Below are positions 25,267 through 43,960 of a stretch of 64,000 nt of DNA, piece after piece. Made by a program: the position numbers and the translations under genes. Location: the NCBI RefSeq assembly GCF_003383095.1, contig NZ_PSYW01000003.1, positions 1-64,000 on the forward strand, written 5' to 3'. The DNA is from Haloferax sp. Atlit-12N (GTDB lineage: Archaea > Halobacteriota > Halobacteria > Halobacteriales > Haloferacaceae). Under the pieces are notes generated by a model. That model saw only the letters and a list, made by a program, of their open reading frames with translations. It searched no databases and was not told where the DNA came from. The first letter of the stretch is position 1. Every line of letters starts with the position of its first letter.

Positions 25267-27642
25267 ATGAGTCCGGACAGTCCACGTTCGGAGCGGTCGG
25301 CGGACCTCCGGAACGCCCTTCCGGTCGTCGCGATGGCGGCCCTCTTGGTGGTCGGTTCGCTCGGACTGGGTGCGGCTATCGCGCCGGTCGCCGCGGACGC
25401 CCACGGTGGAACGCTCACGCGAACGGTCGATGACACCACGCTCGCGCCCGGTGAGTCCACCACCGTCACGGTCGAGGTGAACGCCTCCGAACGGGGGAAC
25501 TTCACCGTGGTCGAAGAGCTGAGTCCGGGCTTCGAGTCGGTCGAAATCGTCGACGCCGACGGCGCGGATTTCTCTGGCGTGCGGAACGCAGACGACGAAC
25601 TGTTCGCGACCTACGGCGACCGCGAGAGCGTCACGCTCGTCTACGAGGTGACCGCGGCCGACGACGCGAACGCGACGACCCACGAACTCACCGGATACGG
25701 CGACTTCGGCCTCGAAGACGTCCGGGCCTCGACGACCGGTGACGGTGAAATCAGCGTCTCGACCGACGACGGGGCGAGCGTGGTCCGCTCGGTCGACGAC
25801 GCGACCCTCGCGCCCGGCGAATCGGCGACCGTCTGGGTGGCTGTCGAACGGGACGAGGCGGCGAACTTCACGCTCGTCGAGGAGTTCAGCCCCGCGTTCG
25901 GCTCGGTCGAAATCGTCGATGCCGACGGCGCGGACTTCTCGGACGTGCGGAACGCCAACGACGAACTGTTCGCCACCTACGGCGACCGCGAGTTGGCCAC
26001 ACTCGTCTACGAGGTAACCGCGGCCGACGACGCGGCGGCCGGCACGGTCTACGAACTCGACGGGTTCGCGGACGTGAACGGCTCGCAGTCGGCGACCGAT
26101 GGGACCGCCGAAATCAGCGTGCAGGAGTCGAGCGACGACGGCGGCGCGGCCGTCCGGTCCGTCGACGATGCGACCCTCGCGCCGGGTGAATCGACCACGG
26201 TCCGGGTCGCCTTCGACCGGGACGAGGCGACGAACTTCACGCTCGTCGAGGAGTTCAGCCCCGCATTCGGCTCGGTGGAGATAGTCGACGACGACGGTGC
26301 GGACTTCTCGGCCGTACGCGACGCCAACGACGAACTGTTCGCGACCTACGGCGACCGCGAGTTGGCCACGCTCGTCTACGAGGTGACCGCCGACAACGAC
26401 GCGACGACCAGCACGGTCTACGAGTTCGGCGGCTTCGCGGACGTGAACGGCTCGCAGTCGGCGACCAATGGAACCGCCGAAATCAGCGTCCAGGCGTCGG
26501 ACGACGGTGACTCCGGTGCGGTTCGGTCGGTCGACGACGAGACCCTCGCGCCGGGCGAATCCACCACCGTCACGGTCGAGGTCGACCGGGACGAGGCGGC
26601 GAACTTCACGCTCATCGAGGAGTTCAACCCCGCCTTTGGTTCGGTCGAAATCGTCGACGACGACGGCGCTGATTTCTCCGGTGTGCGGAACGCCAACGAC
26701 GAACTGTTCGCCACCTACGGCGACCGCGAGAGCGTCACGCTCGTCTACGAGGTGACCGCGGGCGACGACGCGGCCGGCACGGCCTACCAGTTCGACGGCT
26801 TCACCGACGTGAACGGCTCGGAGGTGACGACCGGCGGCACCGACGAACTCGACGTTCAGAGCGAGTCCGACGACGACAACTGGGACCTCACCCGGTCGGC
26901 CGACGACACGACGCTCGAACCCGGTGAATCGACCGTCGTCTCGGTCGAAATCACCGGCAGCGAGGCGACGAACTTCACCGTCATCGAGGAGTTCAACCCC
27001 GGATTCGCATCGGTCGAAATCGTCGATGACGACGGCGCGGACTTCTCGGGCGTGCGGAACGCCAACGACGAACTGTTCGCGACCTACGGTGACCGCGAGA
27101 ACGTCACCCTCCAGTACCGTGTGACCGCCGGTGAGGACATGGACGAGGACGCCTCGTACGAACTCAGCGGGTTCGCGCAGTTCGACGCCGGCGACAAGGA
27201 GATGGACGTCGACGGCCTCGAATCGCTCTCTGTCGGCACTGACGGAGACAGCGGTGACGACGACGGCGACGACGGCGATGATAACGACGGTGACGATGGC
27301 GACGATGGCGACGACGGCGACGACGGCGATGATAACGACGGTGACGATGGCGACGATGGCGACGACGGCGACGACGGCGATGATAACGACGGTGATGACG
27401 GTGATGACGGCGATGACGACGATAACAACGGAGATGACGACGGTGATGACTCAGACGATGGTTCCGACGGCTCGGACGGTGACGACGGCTCGGACGACGG
27501 AACGACCGAGACGACGACGGCCGACCCCAACACGCCCGCGACGACCACGACTGACACGCCCGTTCCCGGGTTCGGTGTCTCGGTTGCGCTCGCCGCGCTC
27601 GTGATGGGCTCGGTCCTTCTCGCGCGCCGGCGAACGAGCTAA
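25267..27642 (+). CDS. PGF-CTERM surface protein with five tandem beta-domains
   Basis: The 791-residue secreted protein has an N-terminal hydrophobic signal (VVAMAALLVVGSLGLGAA, about residues 19-36), then five near-identical domains of about 122 residues starting near 45, 172, 294, 417 and 538. Each begins with a form of VDDATLAPGES and contains VEEFSPAFGSVEIVD, NANDELFATYGDRE and LVYEVTA. A long Asp/Gly linker (about 659-745) leads to TPVPGFGVSVALAA and a terminal Arg cluster, the PGF-CTERM signal processed by archaeosortase A, which lipid-anchors surface proteins. The domains resemble haloarchaeal adhesin- or cohesin-like beta sandwiches, and binding partners are unknown. The nearby laccase is also exported. 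Confidence 0.85.
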   Translation: MSPDSPRSERSADLRNALPVVAMAALLVVGSLGLGAAIAPVAADAHGGTLTRTVDDTTLAPGESTTVTVEVNASERGNFTVVEELSPGFESVEIVDADGADFSGVRNADDELFATYGDRESVTLVYEVTAADDANATTHELTGYGDFGLEDVRASTTGDGEISVSTDDGASVVRSVDDATLAPGESATVWVAVERDEAANFTLVEEFSPAFGSVEIVDADGADFSDVRNANDELFATYGDRELATLVYEVTAADDAAAGTVYELDGFADVNGSQSATDGTAEISVQESSDDGGAAVRSVDDATLAPGESTTVRVAFDRDEATNFTLVEEFSPAFGSVEIVDDDGADFSAVRDANDELFATYGDRELATLVYEVTADNDATTSTVYEFGGFADVNGSQSATNGTAEISVQASDDGDSGAVRSVDDETLAPGESTTVTVEVDRDEAANFTLIEEFNPAFGSVEIVDDDGADFSGVRNANDELFATYGDRESVTLVYEVTAGDDAAGTAYQFDGFTDVNGSEVTTGGTDELDVQSESDDDNWDLTRSADDTTLEPGESTVVSVEITGSEATNFTVIEEFNPGFASVEIVDDDGADFSGVRNANDELFATYGDRENVTLQYRVTAGEDMDEDASYELSGFAQFDAGDKEMDVDGLESLSVGTDGDSGDDDGDDGDDNDGDDGDDGDDGDDGDDNDGDDGDDGDDGDDGDDNDGDDGDDGDDDDNNGDDDGDDSDDGSDGSDGDDGSDDGTTETTTADPNTPATTTTDTPVPGFGVSVALAALVMGSVLLARRRTS
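27277..27390 (+). repeat. 51-bp tandem repeat inside the Asp/Gly linker
   Basis: GATGATAACGAC recurs at 27277, 27328 and 27379, exactly 51 bp apart, with almost identical sequence between. The unit encodes 17 residues of Asn/Asp/Gly spacer. Because 51 is a multiple of three, copy-number change would keep the frame and vary the stalk length of the surface protein. Confidence 0.8.
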
Positions 27643-38453: not shown

Positions 38454-41318
38454 CTACTTAGCCCGTCCGGAGACGGAACCGGAGTGCTCGTCGAACAGCG
38501 TCGCGAACAGTTTCCGCTGGACGGTCCGCACGTGTTTGTAGAACGCCGGCGGGGAGATACCAAGCGTGGCGGCGACCTCCTCGCCCGTGTTCTCTCGTGG
38601 CGATTCGAAGTAGCCGCTGTAGTAGGCCGTCTGGAGCACCTCGAGCTGCCGCTCTGTCAGCTTGTCGAGGAACCGCGAGAAGAGGTCGCGCTCGGTCGAT
38701 TGGTCGAGCGTCTGTTTGGTCCGGAGTTCGACGCCGGCGAACGCTTCGTCGACGAGATGCGTGACGTTTCGAACGTCGATGCTCTCGGGGACGTCGACGA
38801 CGAGCGTCGTCTCCTCGGGGGTCGCCCGCACCTCGCCGAGGACGGCACCGTGGTCCGCAAGCTCCGGTGCGAGAAACGGCTGCGTCAAGCGGAGACGCAG
38901 GACGCCGGCGTCCCCGTCGGTGCTTATCCGTCGCACGTCGGCGACGGCGACCAGTTCGTCGGCCGCGGCCGCGACGGATTCGACCGCTCCGTCCTCGACG
39001 GTGATGAACACGTAGTTCCCTTCGGCGGACTGCTGGACTCCTCCTTGGTAAGTGAGCGTGCACTCCGCGTCGCGGGCGAGCCGCGAGAGGACGAACGTGG
39101 GGTCGTCGACGACGAACCCGACGCGGGTGACGGCCGTGGTGAGCAGTGCGTTCTTCCGTTCGAGGGCGCTCAGCGCCGACGCGATGGTCTCGCCGAGTTC
39201 GGCCAAGACGGCGGTCGCCGTCTCGTCGAAGGCGTCGTGTGTCGTCGCGTACACCGTCAACACGCCGTGCGAGAGGTCGTTATAGACGAGCGGGATGCTG
39301 AGAACCGACAGGTAGTCACGGGTGAGCGCGCCCTTCCGCCAGGGTTCGTCCCGGAAGCCGGACGCGACGTTGGGAACGGTGGTCACCTCTCCGGTCGCCG
39401 CCGTGCGTCCCGCCGGCTCGACCGACGACGCCGCGATGTCGAACGTAGTGCTGTCGAGATAGCCCCGCTCGTCGCCGGCCCACGCGCGGGGCTCAACGGT
39501 CTCGTCGACGGGGTCGACGGAGCCGACCCACGCGAACGCAAACCGGTCGGCGGCGGTCAGTAGCTCGCAGACGGTGTAGTCTATCTCCTCTCGCGTCTGG
39601 GCTCCGACGAGCGCTTGGTCGATTTCGCGGATGGTCTCGTTGATTCGGTTTAGCTCGGTGAGCCGGTCGTTCTGTCGCTGGAGCGTGCGGTCCTGTTCGC
39701 GGAGCCGGGATTCGCGCGTGACGCGGTCGAGCGCCGCCTCGGCAGTCACCGCGAGTAGGTCGGTCAATTCCTGCGCCACCGCGTCGAAGGCTCCGACATC
39801 GGTCGAGCCGGCGACGAACACGCCGTGGTCGCCGAGTGGGACGTACGCGACGCTCCGGAGGCCAGTCACGGCGTTCTCCAACCGGTCGGACTCGTGCACG
39901 TCATCGAAGTACAGCGGACTGTCCTCGACGAAACTGTGGCTCGGAAGGGTCTCCCCGTCCGCGGGCACTGTCGGGAGCGGGCCGTGAGCCTCGCGCATCG
40001 CCGGCGAGTACGCCGCCGGCCTGAGCACGTTGGCGTCGGCATCGAAGAGATAGACGGCGCTCGCATCGAGCGCGAGCACGCCGGGAGTATCGTCGACGAC
40101 GCGCTGGGCGATTTGCCGGTGAGTCCCCGTGTAGAGGAACTCGCGAGCCGTCTCGTGGAGCGTCGTCAGCGCGTCCTCGCGCTGCTTGCGCTTCGTGATG
40201 TCGCGGCAGCTGAAAAGCAACGTCCCGTCCCGAATCGAGACCTCGCGGACGTTGATGAGGAGGGTGTGCTCGCGGCCGGCTTTGTCGGTCACCGTGCTCT
40301 CGATGTTTTTCAGGACGCCGCGCTCCGAAAGTTCGTCGCGGTCGAAGAGGTCCGCCCCCAGCAGTTCGTCGATGGGGACCCGTTCACGCAACTCGTCTGC
40401 GGTGTAGCCGAAGATGAAGTGGACGTTTGGACAGACGTAGGTGTACGCCCCCTCCTCGTCGGTGATGAGGACCGTATCGGTCATGTTGTTGAGCGTGACA
40501 CGGTGGAGTTCCTCGGAGCGGCGGAGGTCTCGTTCGAGCGACACCCGCGCTGTGATGTCGATACCTTCGACTACGACCGACGCGACCTCTCCGCGCTCGT
40601 CGGTCACGGGGCGAACCGATAGCTCGACGATGCGGCGGCTTCCGGCTTCTGACGGCTGTGGGACCACCGCGTTCCCGGCCGTCCCTTCGAGCGCGTTCTT
40701 GACGAGCCGTCGCACGTCGTCGCTCGTCGGGTCGTCTCCTCCCGTCCACCACGGGAGTGACCAGAAGGCCCCACCGACGAGCGGGTCGACGGGTGCGTCG
40801 AGGAGTTCGCGCGCCGTCTGATTCGCCCGAGTCAGCGACCCCTCGCCATCGAGTACCCACGTCGCCGTCCGTTCGTCGTCGAACATCGCGTCGAACTGCC
40901 TGGCCCGTTCGCGCTCGCCGGCCGACTGTCGCGCCGACTGGAGCGCCCGTCCGGTCCGCGTGAGGAGTGTTTCGACGTCCGGCGAGTCGGCGTCAAGCGC
41001 GACGTAGCCAGTCGCGCCCGAACCGAGGACCTCGCTCGCGAGAACGTCACTCCCACCGTCCGCGGCGATGACGACGGGGAGAGTTGTGACCGTCGAGCGA
41101 ACGTCCGTGAGGAGTTCGACGGCGGTCGCGTCCGCGAGGTCGGCGTCGGCCACGACGCAGTCGACCTCACCCGCTTCGACTGTGCGAAGCGCCGCCGCCT
41201 TCGTCTCGGCTTCCAGCACGGTGACGCCGGGTCGCGAACCGAGTTCCTCGGCGAACCGCGTCACCCAGTCGCTCTCGCCGACGACCAGCACGCTGCCAGA
41301 ATCGGGGACACCGGACAT
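38454..41318 (-). CDS. Bacterio-opsin-activator-like multi-sensor transcription regulator
   Basis: The 954-residue protein has a receiver-like domain (about 5-115), two PAS domains (about 140-260 and 265-390), two GAF domains (about 395-540 and 575-735), a BAT-type regulatory domain (about 740-875) and a C-terminal HTH_10 (about 882-945, LTERQLEVLQTAYYSGYFES). This is the haloarchaeal Bat architecture, which integrates redox, light or ligand signals and binds DNA. The receiver-like domain keeps DCVVADADL but lacks the usual Lys after the fifth strand (GYVALDADS), so it may not be phosphorylated. ATG 41318 follows no clear ribosome site. The 9-bp-periodic DNA begins just upstream. Confidence 0.85.
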   Translation of the reverse strand: MSGVPDSGSVLVVGESDWVTRFAEELGSRPGVTVLEAETKAAALRTVEAGEVDCVVADADLADATAVELLTDVRSTVTTLPVVIAADGGSDVLASEVLGSGATGYVALDADSPDVETLLTRTGRALQSARQSAGERERARQFDAMFDDERTATWVLDGEGSLTRANQTARELLDAPVDPLVGGAFWSLPWWTGGDDPTSDDVRRLVKNALEGTAGNAVVPQPSEAGSRRIVELSVRPVTDERGEVASVVVEGIDITARVSLERDLRRSEELHRVTLNNMTDTVLITDEEGAYTYVCPNVHFIFGYTADELRERVPIDELLGADLFDRDELSERGVLKNIESTVTDKAGREHTLLINVREVSIRDGTLLFSCRDITKRKQREDALTTLHETAREFLYTGTHRQIAQRVVDDTPGVLALDASAVYLFDADANVLRPAAYSPAMREAHGPLPTVPADGETLPSHSFVEDSPLYFDDVHESDRLENAVTGLRSVAYVPLGDHGVFVAGSTDVGAFDAVAQELTDLLAVTAEAALDRVTRESRLREQDRTLQRQNDRLTELNRINETIREIDQALVGAQTREEIDYTVCELLTAADRFAFAWVGSVDPVDETVEPRAWAGDERGYLDSTTFDIAASSVEPAGRTAATGEVTTVPNVASGFRDEPWRKGALTRDYLSVLSIPLVYNDLSHGVLTVYATTHDAFDETATAVLAELGETIASALSALERKNALLTTAVTRVGFVVDDPTFVLSRLARDAECTLTYQGGVQQSAEGNYVFITVEDGAVESVAAAADELVAVADVRRISTDGDAGVLRLRLTQPFLAPELADHGAVLGEVRATPEETTLVVDVPESIDVRNVTHLVDEAFAGVELRTKQTLDQSTERDLFSRFLDKLTERQLEVLQTAYYSGYFESPRENTGEEVAATLGISPPAFYKHVRTVQRKLFATLFDEHSGSVSGRAK

Positions 41319-41372: not shown

Positions 41373-42045
41373 TAGCAATAGCTCAAGAATTTTGAATAAT
41401 CTGAATTTTTTAGATAATGGAAGTGTGTTGGGAGTTTTGAATTTCTCAGGAAACGTGGGTTCTTCCAGCCACGTAGGTTGTCCGCGGTTGCTTCCTCCTG
41501 TGCATTGCGCGGGGTAGTCAGGCGGCCCAAACTATTCACATGCTCTAGACAATCCACATAGCTCAGATAATCTGAACTCTTCGCCTGTCGTCACCTCCGC
41601 ACAGTATCGAACTCATAGGGATTCTGCACGAGTCGCAGATTATTCAGATAACCACAAAAATCAGAACGGCCCACATGGCTTGGATTAGGCGCATGTGTGG
41701 ATAACGGAAGCTGCGTGGATAGCCTCGATAACGGTGGTTCTTCGACTAACTGGAGTTCTCAGTACTACCGTGTTTCTCTGACCGCTCTCCCCGTCGCGTA
41801 CGAGCGGGATTAGTCGCTTCCGGCCCGCTTCGAGGTCGAGCCAGGTCCAGTTAGTAATCCAAATAATCTGGATATCCCGAAGTATGGTACTGTTCCGGCT
41901 CGCGTTCCTCGACGGCTAGCTTCGTAATGTCTGCATTGCCGGGATACTGTGAGTTCCCTGACGAACTTCCAGTATTAGGGAAATCTAAATAACCTAGGTT
42001 ATCTGAAAAGTCTAAACTACTCAGATGGCCCAAGTAATGTCCAAT
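41373..42045. repeat. Long 9-bp-periodic degenerate repeat, non-coding
   Basis: Almost the whole gap between two regulators follows a 9-nt rhythm of three pyrimidine-rich, three purine-rich and three mixed bases. The clearest run is at 41526-41579: CCCAAACTA, TTCACATGC, TCTAGACAA, TCCACATAG, CTCAGATAA, TCTGAACTC. Another begins at 41373 (TAGCAATAG, CTCAAGAAT, TTTGAATAA, TCTGAATTT, TTTAGATAA). Phase slips and unpatterned stretches occur (about 41490-41520, 41590-41635, 41780-41860). On the minus strand the period corresponds to tripeptides such as Leu-Asp-Phe, but no ORF spans the region. Nature unknown. Confidence 0.65.
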
Positions 42046-42052
42046 AGCCACC

Positions 42053-43618
42053 TCAGTTCTCCAGCGCGGGGAGTCTGAGTTCGACCGTTGACCCGCCCTC
42101 AGCGCGGTCCGAGATAGACACCTCGCCGTCGAACTGCGTGACGAACCAGTGGACGGTCCACAGCCCCATTCCGCTCCCATGCGTTAGGGGTGTCTCTTTC
42201 CCGCGTTTCAGAATCTCCCGTTCGGTCTGTGGGATACCGGGACCGTTGTCCTCGACCGCGATTGCGACTCGCTCTCCTGAGAGGCGTCGCGACCAGACCG
42301 CGACGACGGGGCGGTCCTCGTCGTTGTGGACGATGGCGTTCTGTACGAGTTCGTCGAGCGCGAGGTACAGCGAGTGCGTGCTCGCGAGCACGGTCTGTTC
42401 GCTCTGCCCGATTCGAATCTCCGCCTCGGGATGCTTCCGCTCGTACGTCTGTTTGAGGTCAGCGAAAACGTCGCCGACGCCGACCGGGTGTCTGTCGGTG
42501 CTCCCCTCCACGGCGTTCTCGAACTGCCGGGCTTTCTCGCCGGTCGACACGAGGCTGTCGGCGTTCTCGATGATTCGGTCCGTCTTCGAGACCATCACTT
42601 CCGCCGAGAATTGACTCGCTGCGGCGACCAGCGTGTCGAGCGTCCGCAGTTCCGTATCGATGCCCCTGGTCGTCTCGCTCAGTTTCGCCAGCGTCTCGTG
42701 CAACCGGTCGTAGTCGCCTTCGTCTATCGACGGAGTGCCGAGCGCTTCGAGGTCTCGTTTCAACTCGCTCGCGTACCCGCTGACGACGTTGAGGTTGTTC
42801 CGAAGGTTGTGACGAAGCACTCGGTTCAACACCATGAGTCGCTCTTCGCGTTCTTTCCTGTCCGAGATGTCGCGCACCGCGCCGCGGACGTTGGCACCGC
42901 CGTCCGTCGGCTCACCGCGAACTTGCACCCACCGCGTTCGCCCGGTGGCCGTTATCACCCGCATTTCGACGTCGAACGGGTCGCCGTCGACCTTCGCACT
43001 CTCGATAGCTCCGTCGATGACAGAGCGGTCGTCCTCGTGAAAGAAGTCCCTGAGCCCGTCGATTGTCACCTCCGCGTCGGGCGGGATATCGACCAGCCGC
43101 TTGGTCCCGTCGGTCAGTCGTAGCTCGCCGGTTTCGTAGTCGACCTCCCAGCCGCCGATGTCGGCCAGTTGTTCGGTGCGTTCGAGGCGGTCGCGGCTCC
43201 GCTCTAACTCCTGGCGGTACTCGTAGGTCTCGGTGACGTCTCGGACGATTTTCGTGAAGGCTCTGAGCTCTCCGTCGTCGTCACGCAGCGCGCGGATGGT
43301 TACGTGCGCGAGGATGCGCGACCCGTCCTTCCGGACCCGCCACCCCTGTTCCTCGTAGCTTCCCTCGGACTCGGCGATCAAGAGCACTGTCTCGGGAGAC
43401 GTGCCGTCTCCCTCGGTGGGATAAAAGACGGACAGATGGCGACCGATAATCTCGTCTCGCTCGTAGCCCTTTATCCGTCTCGCACCCTCGTTCCACGTCG
43501 CCACGAACCCGTCCGCGTCGAGGAGAAATATCGCGTATTCGGTCACCTCCTGAAAGAACTCTCGAAGGATGAGGTCAGATTCGATGTGTCTGGGCAACTT
43601 GCCCCGCTCTCTTGACAT
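42053..43618 (-). CDS. PAS-domain sensor histidine kinase
   Basis: The 521-residue soluble kinase has two PAS domains (about residues 20-135, with AIFLLDADGFVATWNEGA, and about 140-265), a phosphoacceptor helix (NRVLRHNLRNNLNVVSGYAS, His near residue 279) and a HATPase domain with N box LVQNAIVHND, G1 box VEDNGPGIP and G2 box GSGMGLWTVHWF. It should autophosphorylate in the cytoplasm. No cognate receiver is adjacent, as is common in haloarchaea. ATG 43618 is used rather than the longer frame because it matches typical starts of the family. The 9-bp-periodic region abuts its stop codon. Confidence 0.88.
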   Translation of the reverse strand: MSRERGKLPRHIESDLILREFFQEVTEYAIFLLDADGFVATWNEGARRIKGYERDEIIGRHLSVFYPTEGDGTSPETVLLIAESEGSYEEQGWRVRKDGSRILAHVTIRALRDDDGELRAFTKIVRDVTETYEYRQELERSRDRLERTEQLADIGGWEVDYETGELRLTDGTKRLVDIPPDAEVTIDGLRDFFHEDDRSVIDGAIESAKVDGDPFDVEMRVITATGRTRWVQVRGEPTDGGANVRGAVRDISDRKEREERLMVLNRVLRHNLRNNLNVVSGYASELKRDLEALGTPSIDEGDYDRLHETLAKLSETTRGIDTELRTLDTLVAAASQFSAEVMVSKTDRIIENADSLVSTGEKARQFENAVEGSTDRHPVGVGDVFADLKQTYERKHPEAEIRIGQSEQTVLASTHSLYLALDELVQNAIVHNDEDRPVVAVWSRRLSGERVAIAVEDNGPGIPQTEREILKRGKETPLTHGSGMGLWTVHWFVTQFDGEVSISDRAEGGSTVELRLPALEN

Positions 43619-43960
43619 TATAAATTGATTACCATCCACATGGCCATAAACTGCTCGGCGGTTCGAGAGGTGAACGGGCGGGAGAGCGTCTCGTCCGGGC
43701 GGTGAACCATCCGTCAACGAACCGAGTGACGATTGACGATGGTCGTCTCGGCGACGAACGCCTGAACGAGACCCTACTGGTGGGCGCAGACCCTCTCCCG
43801 AGTTCGGGTTGGGCTAGTGGAGGGCGTCGTATCCCGGCCATCTCGTCCGCGGAGGGAGTCGCTACCGGTCCGGTCGGGTTCGACTGCCCCAGTCGTCCAG
43901 AAGTATTTAGCCGTCGGCCCCCAGACACGCAGTCGAACTCCCTGTCAGAGTACACCCAGC
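43619..43960. other. Divergent promoter region between kinase and LolA-like gene
   Basis: No gene in 342 bp. TTATAAATTGATTACC at 43619-43634 supplies an AT-rich stretch directly before the kinase start. AAGTATTTAG at about 43902-43911 is a TATA candidate 50-59 bases before the ATG at 43961. Confidence 0.5.

Follow-up and report, generated by a model that had tools for sequence, protein, structure and literature searches.

A phase-locked 9-bp repeat array on a Haloferax megaplasmid as a putative centromere-like site of the par1 partition system

A noncoding stretch within the window (the 64,000-nucleotide stretch of Haloferax sp. Atlit-12N DNA analyzed here) is probably a centromere-like (parS) array, the putative parS of the par1 partition system of a Haloferax megaplasmid. 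The array is real, conserved, and functional looking, and it most likely represents a new, archaeal variety of plasmid centromere. We favor this reading because the code spelled by the array also precedes the parA gene of the plasmid and because most related plasmids have a 9-base beat of their own at that place.

By segmentation with a cyclic HMM, the array spans 41375-42050 (675 bp of noncoding DNA) and contains ~75 unit places, 59 of them occupied by complete units (Table 1); an earlier sequence-only reading had placed its start correctly to within 2 bp, and its end lies near 42050. That reading had claimed a 9-bp rhythm, to be checked by autocorrelation against shuffled controls, and the expected peak was present. 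Base identity in 41373-42060 gave z scores of 4.4, 7.0, 5.7, and 5.6 at lags 9, 18, 27, and 36, respectively, and the purine/pyrimidine autocorrelation of the same region gave 6.7, 6.8, 6.0, and 5.6; for both measures, 0 of 500 dinucleotide shuffles matched any of these peaks. A 9-state cyclic HMM described the array with a log likelihood of -836.6, compared with -952.8 for the background model. Periods of 7, 8, 10, and 11 yielded -917 to -942, at least 80 nats worse than 9, and a period of 18 yielded -825.5 with twice as many parameters as period 9. A plain lag-9 score is unspecific in this GC-rich genome, since the period 3 of coding DNA lifts lag 9 as well. To deal with this confound, period 9 was set against other periods, and AT-rich or noncoding DNA served as control; period fits on mixed coding flanks were discarded because of codon periodicity. 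Among AT-rich 300-bp segments, the 40 top period-9-specific scores fell nearly all inside arrays of this kind.

The long in-phase runs that had been described were borne out, but the rhythm proved more regular than the "occasional slips" mentioned with them: segmentation found one slip only, 1 base short, near 41695. Two stretches match the model poorly (41761-41852 and 41898-41926), and phase is retained over both. The unit is degenerate and nearly dyad symmetric, with a consensus of approximately Y-R-R-A-T-W-A-Y-Y (typical units are CAGATAATC, TGAATAATC, TAGATAATG, and CACATAGCT), and a unit trained over several arrays is approximately its own reverse complement. The alternating pyrimidine-rich, purine-rich, and mixed triplets originally proposed thus gave way to a near-palindromic unit, and it is because of this symmetry that the array gives model scores on both strands. 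Tandem Repeats Finder reported only a two-copy fragment (41537-41572), since the copies are too divergent for it. The strong degeneracy of the units counts against the centromere reading. A profile model for genome searches was abandoned when MAFFT scattered the phased repeats across 127 columns. Elsewhere in the window, ~150 bp at 483-635 are very AT rich (25% GC) and do not fit the 9-bp model; 27241-27516 combines period 9 with longer tandem repeats, is rich in GAC/GGC codons, and looks like an acidic Asp/Gly-rich coding repeat distinct from the array; and a 369-bp unit occurs four times in tandem at 25537-27111, apparently encoding a protein domain that is repeated within a large coding region.

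Table 1. Coordinates of the array, its neighbors, and related par features (positions without a contig name are those of the window).
Feature	Location	Strand	Basis or remark
Array segment A: ~43 successive 9-bp units, 35 slip-free, then 1-bp slip near 41695	41375..41761	.	Cyclic HMM segmentation; near-dyad symmetry
Poor-match stretch inside array, phase retained	41762..41852	.	Unit starts at 41752 and 41860, 108 = 12 x 9 bp apart
Array segment B: ~5 units, e.g., CAAATAATC TGGATATCC	41853..41897	.	Cyclic HMM segmentation
Short poor-match stretch, phase retained	41898..41926	.	41887 to 41932 = 5 x 9 bp
Array segment C: ~13 units, e.g., TAAATAACC TAGGTTATC TGAAAAGTC; reaches stop codon of histidine-kinase gene	41927..42050	.	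Cyclic HMM segmentation
PAS/histidine-kinase-like gene, 554 aa; 3' end abuts array; synteny marker outside array	42053..43717	-	ORF list; together with array in seven Haloferax genomes
Bacterio-opsin-activator-like regulator gene; start faces array	38454..41318	-	ORF list; plasmid matches named bacterio-opsin activator; synteny; start codon 41318 chosen within listed ORF
parA of par1; promoter tract 263485-263589	C3:263593-264453		Profile matches AAA_31 (E 1.1e-32), CbiA/ParA
par1 small partner gene behind parA, overlapping it; 136-aa protein with acidic stretch	C3:264453-264863		ORF
Second, stronger 9-bp array, ~650 bp, different word (around TRCACTGTY), directly upstream of parA	C4:161804-162458		Same genome

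The sequence-only reading had noted that no ORF covers the region, and indeed none of the six frames is open across it: each contains 7 to 16 stops, and no open stretch exceeds 76 codons. It had nonetheless entertained a decayed coding repeat of tripeptides, in whose favor one can say that 9 is a multiple of 3. We reject this explanation, whose probability we consider negligible, because stops occur in all six frames, the unit is nearly dyad symmetric, and the same period is spelled differently on other plasmids; moreover, when diverged arrays are aligned, many indels have lengths not divisible by 3. The argument that 9 bp is close to a helical turn carries no weight, since 9 bp amounts to ~0.86 of a turn.

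In the Haloferax group to which the window belongs, seven genomes carry a long array at the corresponding site, adjoining the histidine-kinase gene and far from par. Between the window array and its H. marisrubri counterpart, identity is 93% with no indel; to arrays of a more distant Haloferax group it is 57 to 63%, with the 9-bp period persisting. Between the window and H. marisrubri, counts of the transition:transversion type were 43:8 in the array and 281:113 in the flanking genes, a transition excess in the array that is only suggestive (Fisher P = 0.06). The bacterio-opsin-activator-like gene is absent beside the array in three species that retain the array; therefore, the array is not simply a regulatory element of that gene, and the notion of a structural element between two regulator genes found no support as such.

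The window lies on C3, a 468-kb draft contig that also carries a Walker-type ParA gene. A pattern search placed nearly all further tracts of the code in this genome on C3, and a full scan of that contig with a refined model found the code only in the window array, in a 47-bp tract at 150.57 kb, and in the parA promoter (263485-263589). The scan covered all of C3 plus 352 kb sampled from other contigs; no window code was found in those 352 kb, the single weak match being a different array on contig C4. The tract at C3:150565-150611 lies between IclR-like and luciferase-like genes, and another short tract (C3:401466-401489) lies upstream of a peptidase-like gene; either could be an extra binding site.

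Par1 and the code pattern occur together in 13 of 15 Haloferax genomes, and the other 2 have neither. Matches are confined to the par1 contig in 11 genomes; in two fragmented genomes (G002 and G007), matches occur on further contigs as well, some of which are syntenic with the window. Outside Haloferax, matches to the pattern were no commoner than matches to a reversed control pattern. A promoter tract was present in all nine named Haloferax par1 loci, and a model for which the window array was the sole training sequence detected these nine promoters with z scores of 12 to 34, as well as the par-flanking arrays of four further genomes with z scores of 51 to 88. A model of the C4 array recognized neither these promoters nor these arrays. 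A model from Haloarcula locus L176 gave weaker signals on them, indicating that different systems can have partly overlapping codes.

On C3, 222 kb separate the window array from parA and 239 kb separate it from orc1/cdc6, distances that are unusual for a main centromere and count against that reading. Long arrays of the window code flank the par1 operon beside orc1/cdc6, lying between the two, in five other genomes (G005, G006, G010, G012, and G013, including H. mucosum and H. profundi), and several haloarchaeal plasmid par loci likewise adjoin orc1/cdc6. Such positions might be expected if the arrays belonged to replication origins, as initiator iterons or as an unwinding element, and were not centromeres. 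This is quite unlikely, given that the only orc1/cdc6 match on C3 (279782-280885) has no array beside it, the window array being remote from it, and that on C4 the array and orc1/cdc6 lie on opposite sides of parA. The C3 array is almost exactly half of C3 away from orc1/cdc6, where an element of the terminus region akin to matS or dif would sit opposite the origin. We regard such an element as very improbable: array-to-orc distances vary among the draft contigs of other species (~116, 235, 247, and 400 kb), and there are species in which the array adjoins orc. An antipodal position as a general rule was dropped, as it is not general across species. C3 resembles pHV3 of H. volcanii in its size (468 kb, compared with 438 kb) and its single orc1/cdc6 match (pHV3 has one orc) (PMC2841640, PMC3528665).

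The centromere reading of the window array gains from the second array in the same genome. C4 carries its own parA (44% identical to that of par1), a small acidic ORF, and orc1/cdc6, with the array immediately upstream of parA (Table 1). Another Haloferax par system uses words such as TACCTTAGG. The sequence-only reading had suggested a search of haloarchaeal genomes for similar period-9 patches, and such patches turned up at most of the plasmid par loci surveyed. In noncoding DNA upstream of parA, 9 was the best period among 5 to 15 at 21 of 24 haloarchaeal plasmid par loci, and 22 of the 24 had shuffle P values of <0.005; the corresponding controls gave 9 as the best period in 2 of 19 stretches downstream of the small gene and in 7 of 39 other intergenic stretches. 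Two of the three loci at which 9 was not the best period show no period-9 signal, and these exceptions speak against the centromere reading. All 16 par loci fitted by HMM favored period 9 over 7, 8, 10, and 11, with consensus sequences that differ among loci, and the plasmid loci examined share the arrangement of a small gene directly behind parA. Related genomes are not independent, but the plasmid survey spanned many genera in several families. One parA subfamily has little upstream noncoding DNA: L208 (NZ_CP010532.1) and L212 (NZ_CP034691.1) are without period 9, similar loci L210 and L214 have it, and the centromeres of the L208 and L212 plasmids may be located elsewhere.

For the role of centromere-binding protein, the obvious candidate is the small product of the gene behind parA. 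Its relatives have in common a short N-terminal motif, (D/N)PF.DL in most, a linker of acidic residues, and a conserved domain at the C terminus. Searches of Pfam and NCBIfam returned no match of any kind for the par1 partner, neither to a known DNA-binding family nor to the ParB, KorB, and HTH models by which the partner of a type Ia ParABS system would be recognized. AlphaFold predicts a helical C-terminal domain with low to middling confidence, and at that model confidence fold comparisons with the PDB gave no usable match. Both the missing family match and the weak structure prediction count against the centromere reading.

We propose that the small acidic partner would occupy neighboring near-symmetric 9-bp units and coat the array, and that it would engage the ParA ATPase, perhaps through the DPF.DL motif conserved at its N terminus, allowing the replicon to be moved or tethered. 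Units in the parA promoter would let the partner control its own operon, and a different word on each replicon would keep partition complexes apart. Partner binding, ParA contact, partition, and autoregulation are what we infer from this arrangement, with side-by-side binding modeled on the omega protein discussed below. The earlier suggestion of a protein-binding array appears to have been right in kind, judging from the code in the parA promoter and from a period that is kept between species while the sequence diverges. The same sites might instead serve as an operator or chromatin element, on which the par1 partner or another factor would act to repress or silence DNA or to shape plasmid chromatin, with no role in partition. 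Code in the parA promoter fits autorepression, and the short tract at 150.57 kb lies between genes, as such a role would allow. Nonetheless, we consider this alternative improbable: the window array is not tied to one neighbor, as its persistence in three species without the bacterio-opsin-activator-like gene indicates; ~75 units far exceed the usual need of an operator; and arrays are linked to parA in different genera.

Centromeres of the ParR/parC (type II) and ParG/ParF systems of bacterial plasmids are iterons, in which a small protein binds direct repeats located at the par promoter; they differ from the haloarchaeal arrays in the ATPase (ParM) or in repeat lengths. A close likeness is to delta/omega of pSM19035, whose centromere consists of contiguous 7-bp repeats that are bound by omega and that overlap par promoters (PMC9499535). 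Both systems have a Walker-type ParA, a small partner, contiguous short repeats overlapping par promoters, and several array sites per plasmid (PMC9499535). The pSM19035 units are heptads, 7 to 10 per array, whereas those of Haloferax are 9 bp long, near palindromic, far more degenerate, and present in up to ~75 unit places; omega is a ribbon-helix-helix protein, whereas the haloarchaeal partner is only predicted, with low to middling confidence, to be helical at its C terminus. Unlike pSM19035, moreover, the haloarchaeal systems are archaeal, have their own word per replicon, and can have a long array 200 kb from par. SegAB of the Sulfolobales and other archaea resembles par1 in having a ParA-type ATPase gene whose end is overlapped by the gene for a small protein specific to archaea (PMC5120986), but SegB is described with two discrete DNA sites beside segAB, whereas the haloarchaeal site is a long phased array, and SegAB is chromosomal. 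Tandem repeats of Haloferax that were proposed in 1995 to function in replicon partitioning are now known to be CRISPR arrays (PMC2841640). They share genus and proposed function with the window array, which differs from them in its makeup and in its link to parA.

The principle of a repeat-array centromere in par promoters is already known in bacteria. What appears to be new here is the 9-bp, degenerate, near-palindromic, phase-locked haloarchaeal form, the unannotated partner family, and the remote long array; we found no earlier description in openly licensed papers, and mention elsewhere is possible. With less assurance than for the window array itself, we lean toward the broader view that haloarchaeal plasmids share a class of centromere with a 9-bp beat, consisting of long, phase-locked, degenerate, near-palindromic arrays with their own spelling on each replicon, each read by its own diverging partner, such that several megaplasmids could be partitioned in one cell, and with the long array far from par in part of Haloferax. 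According to a review of archaeal genome segregation, the outstanding questions include the appearance of chromosome and plasmid centromeres, their clustered or dispersed arrangement, and the means by which halophiles segregate a chromosome together with several megaplasmids (PMC5120986). The array offers a specific, recognizable centromere candidate in a genetically tractable genus, and its pairing with a partner predicts which protein reads which array. The 9-bp beat would provide a signature by which par sites could be recognized in the sequences of haloarchaeal plasmids, and the different 9-bp words suggest how replicons may avoid cross talk.
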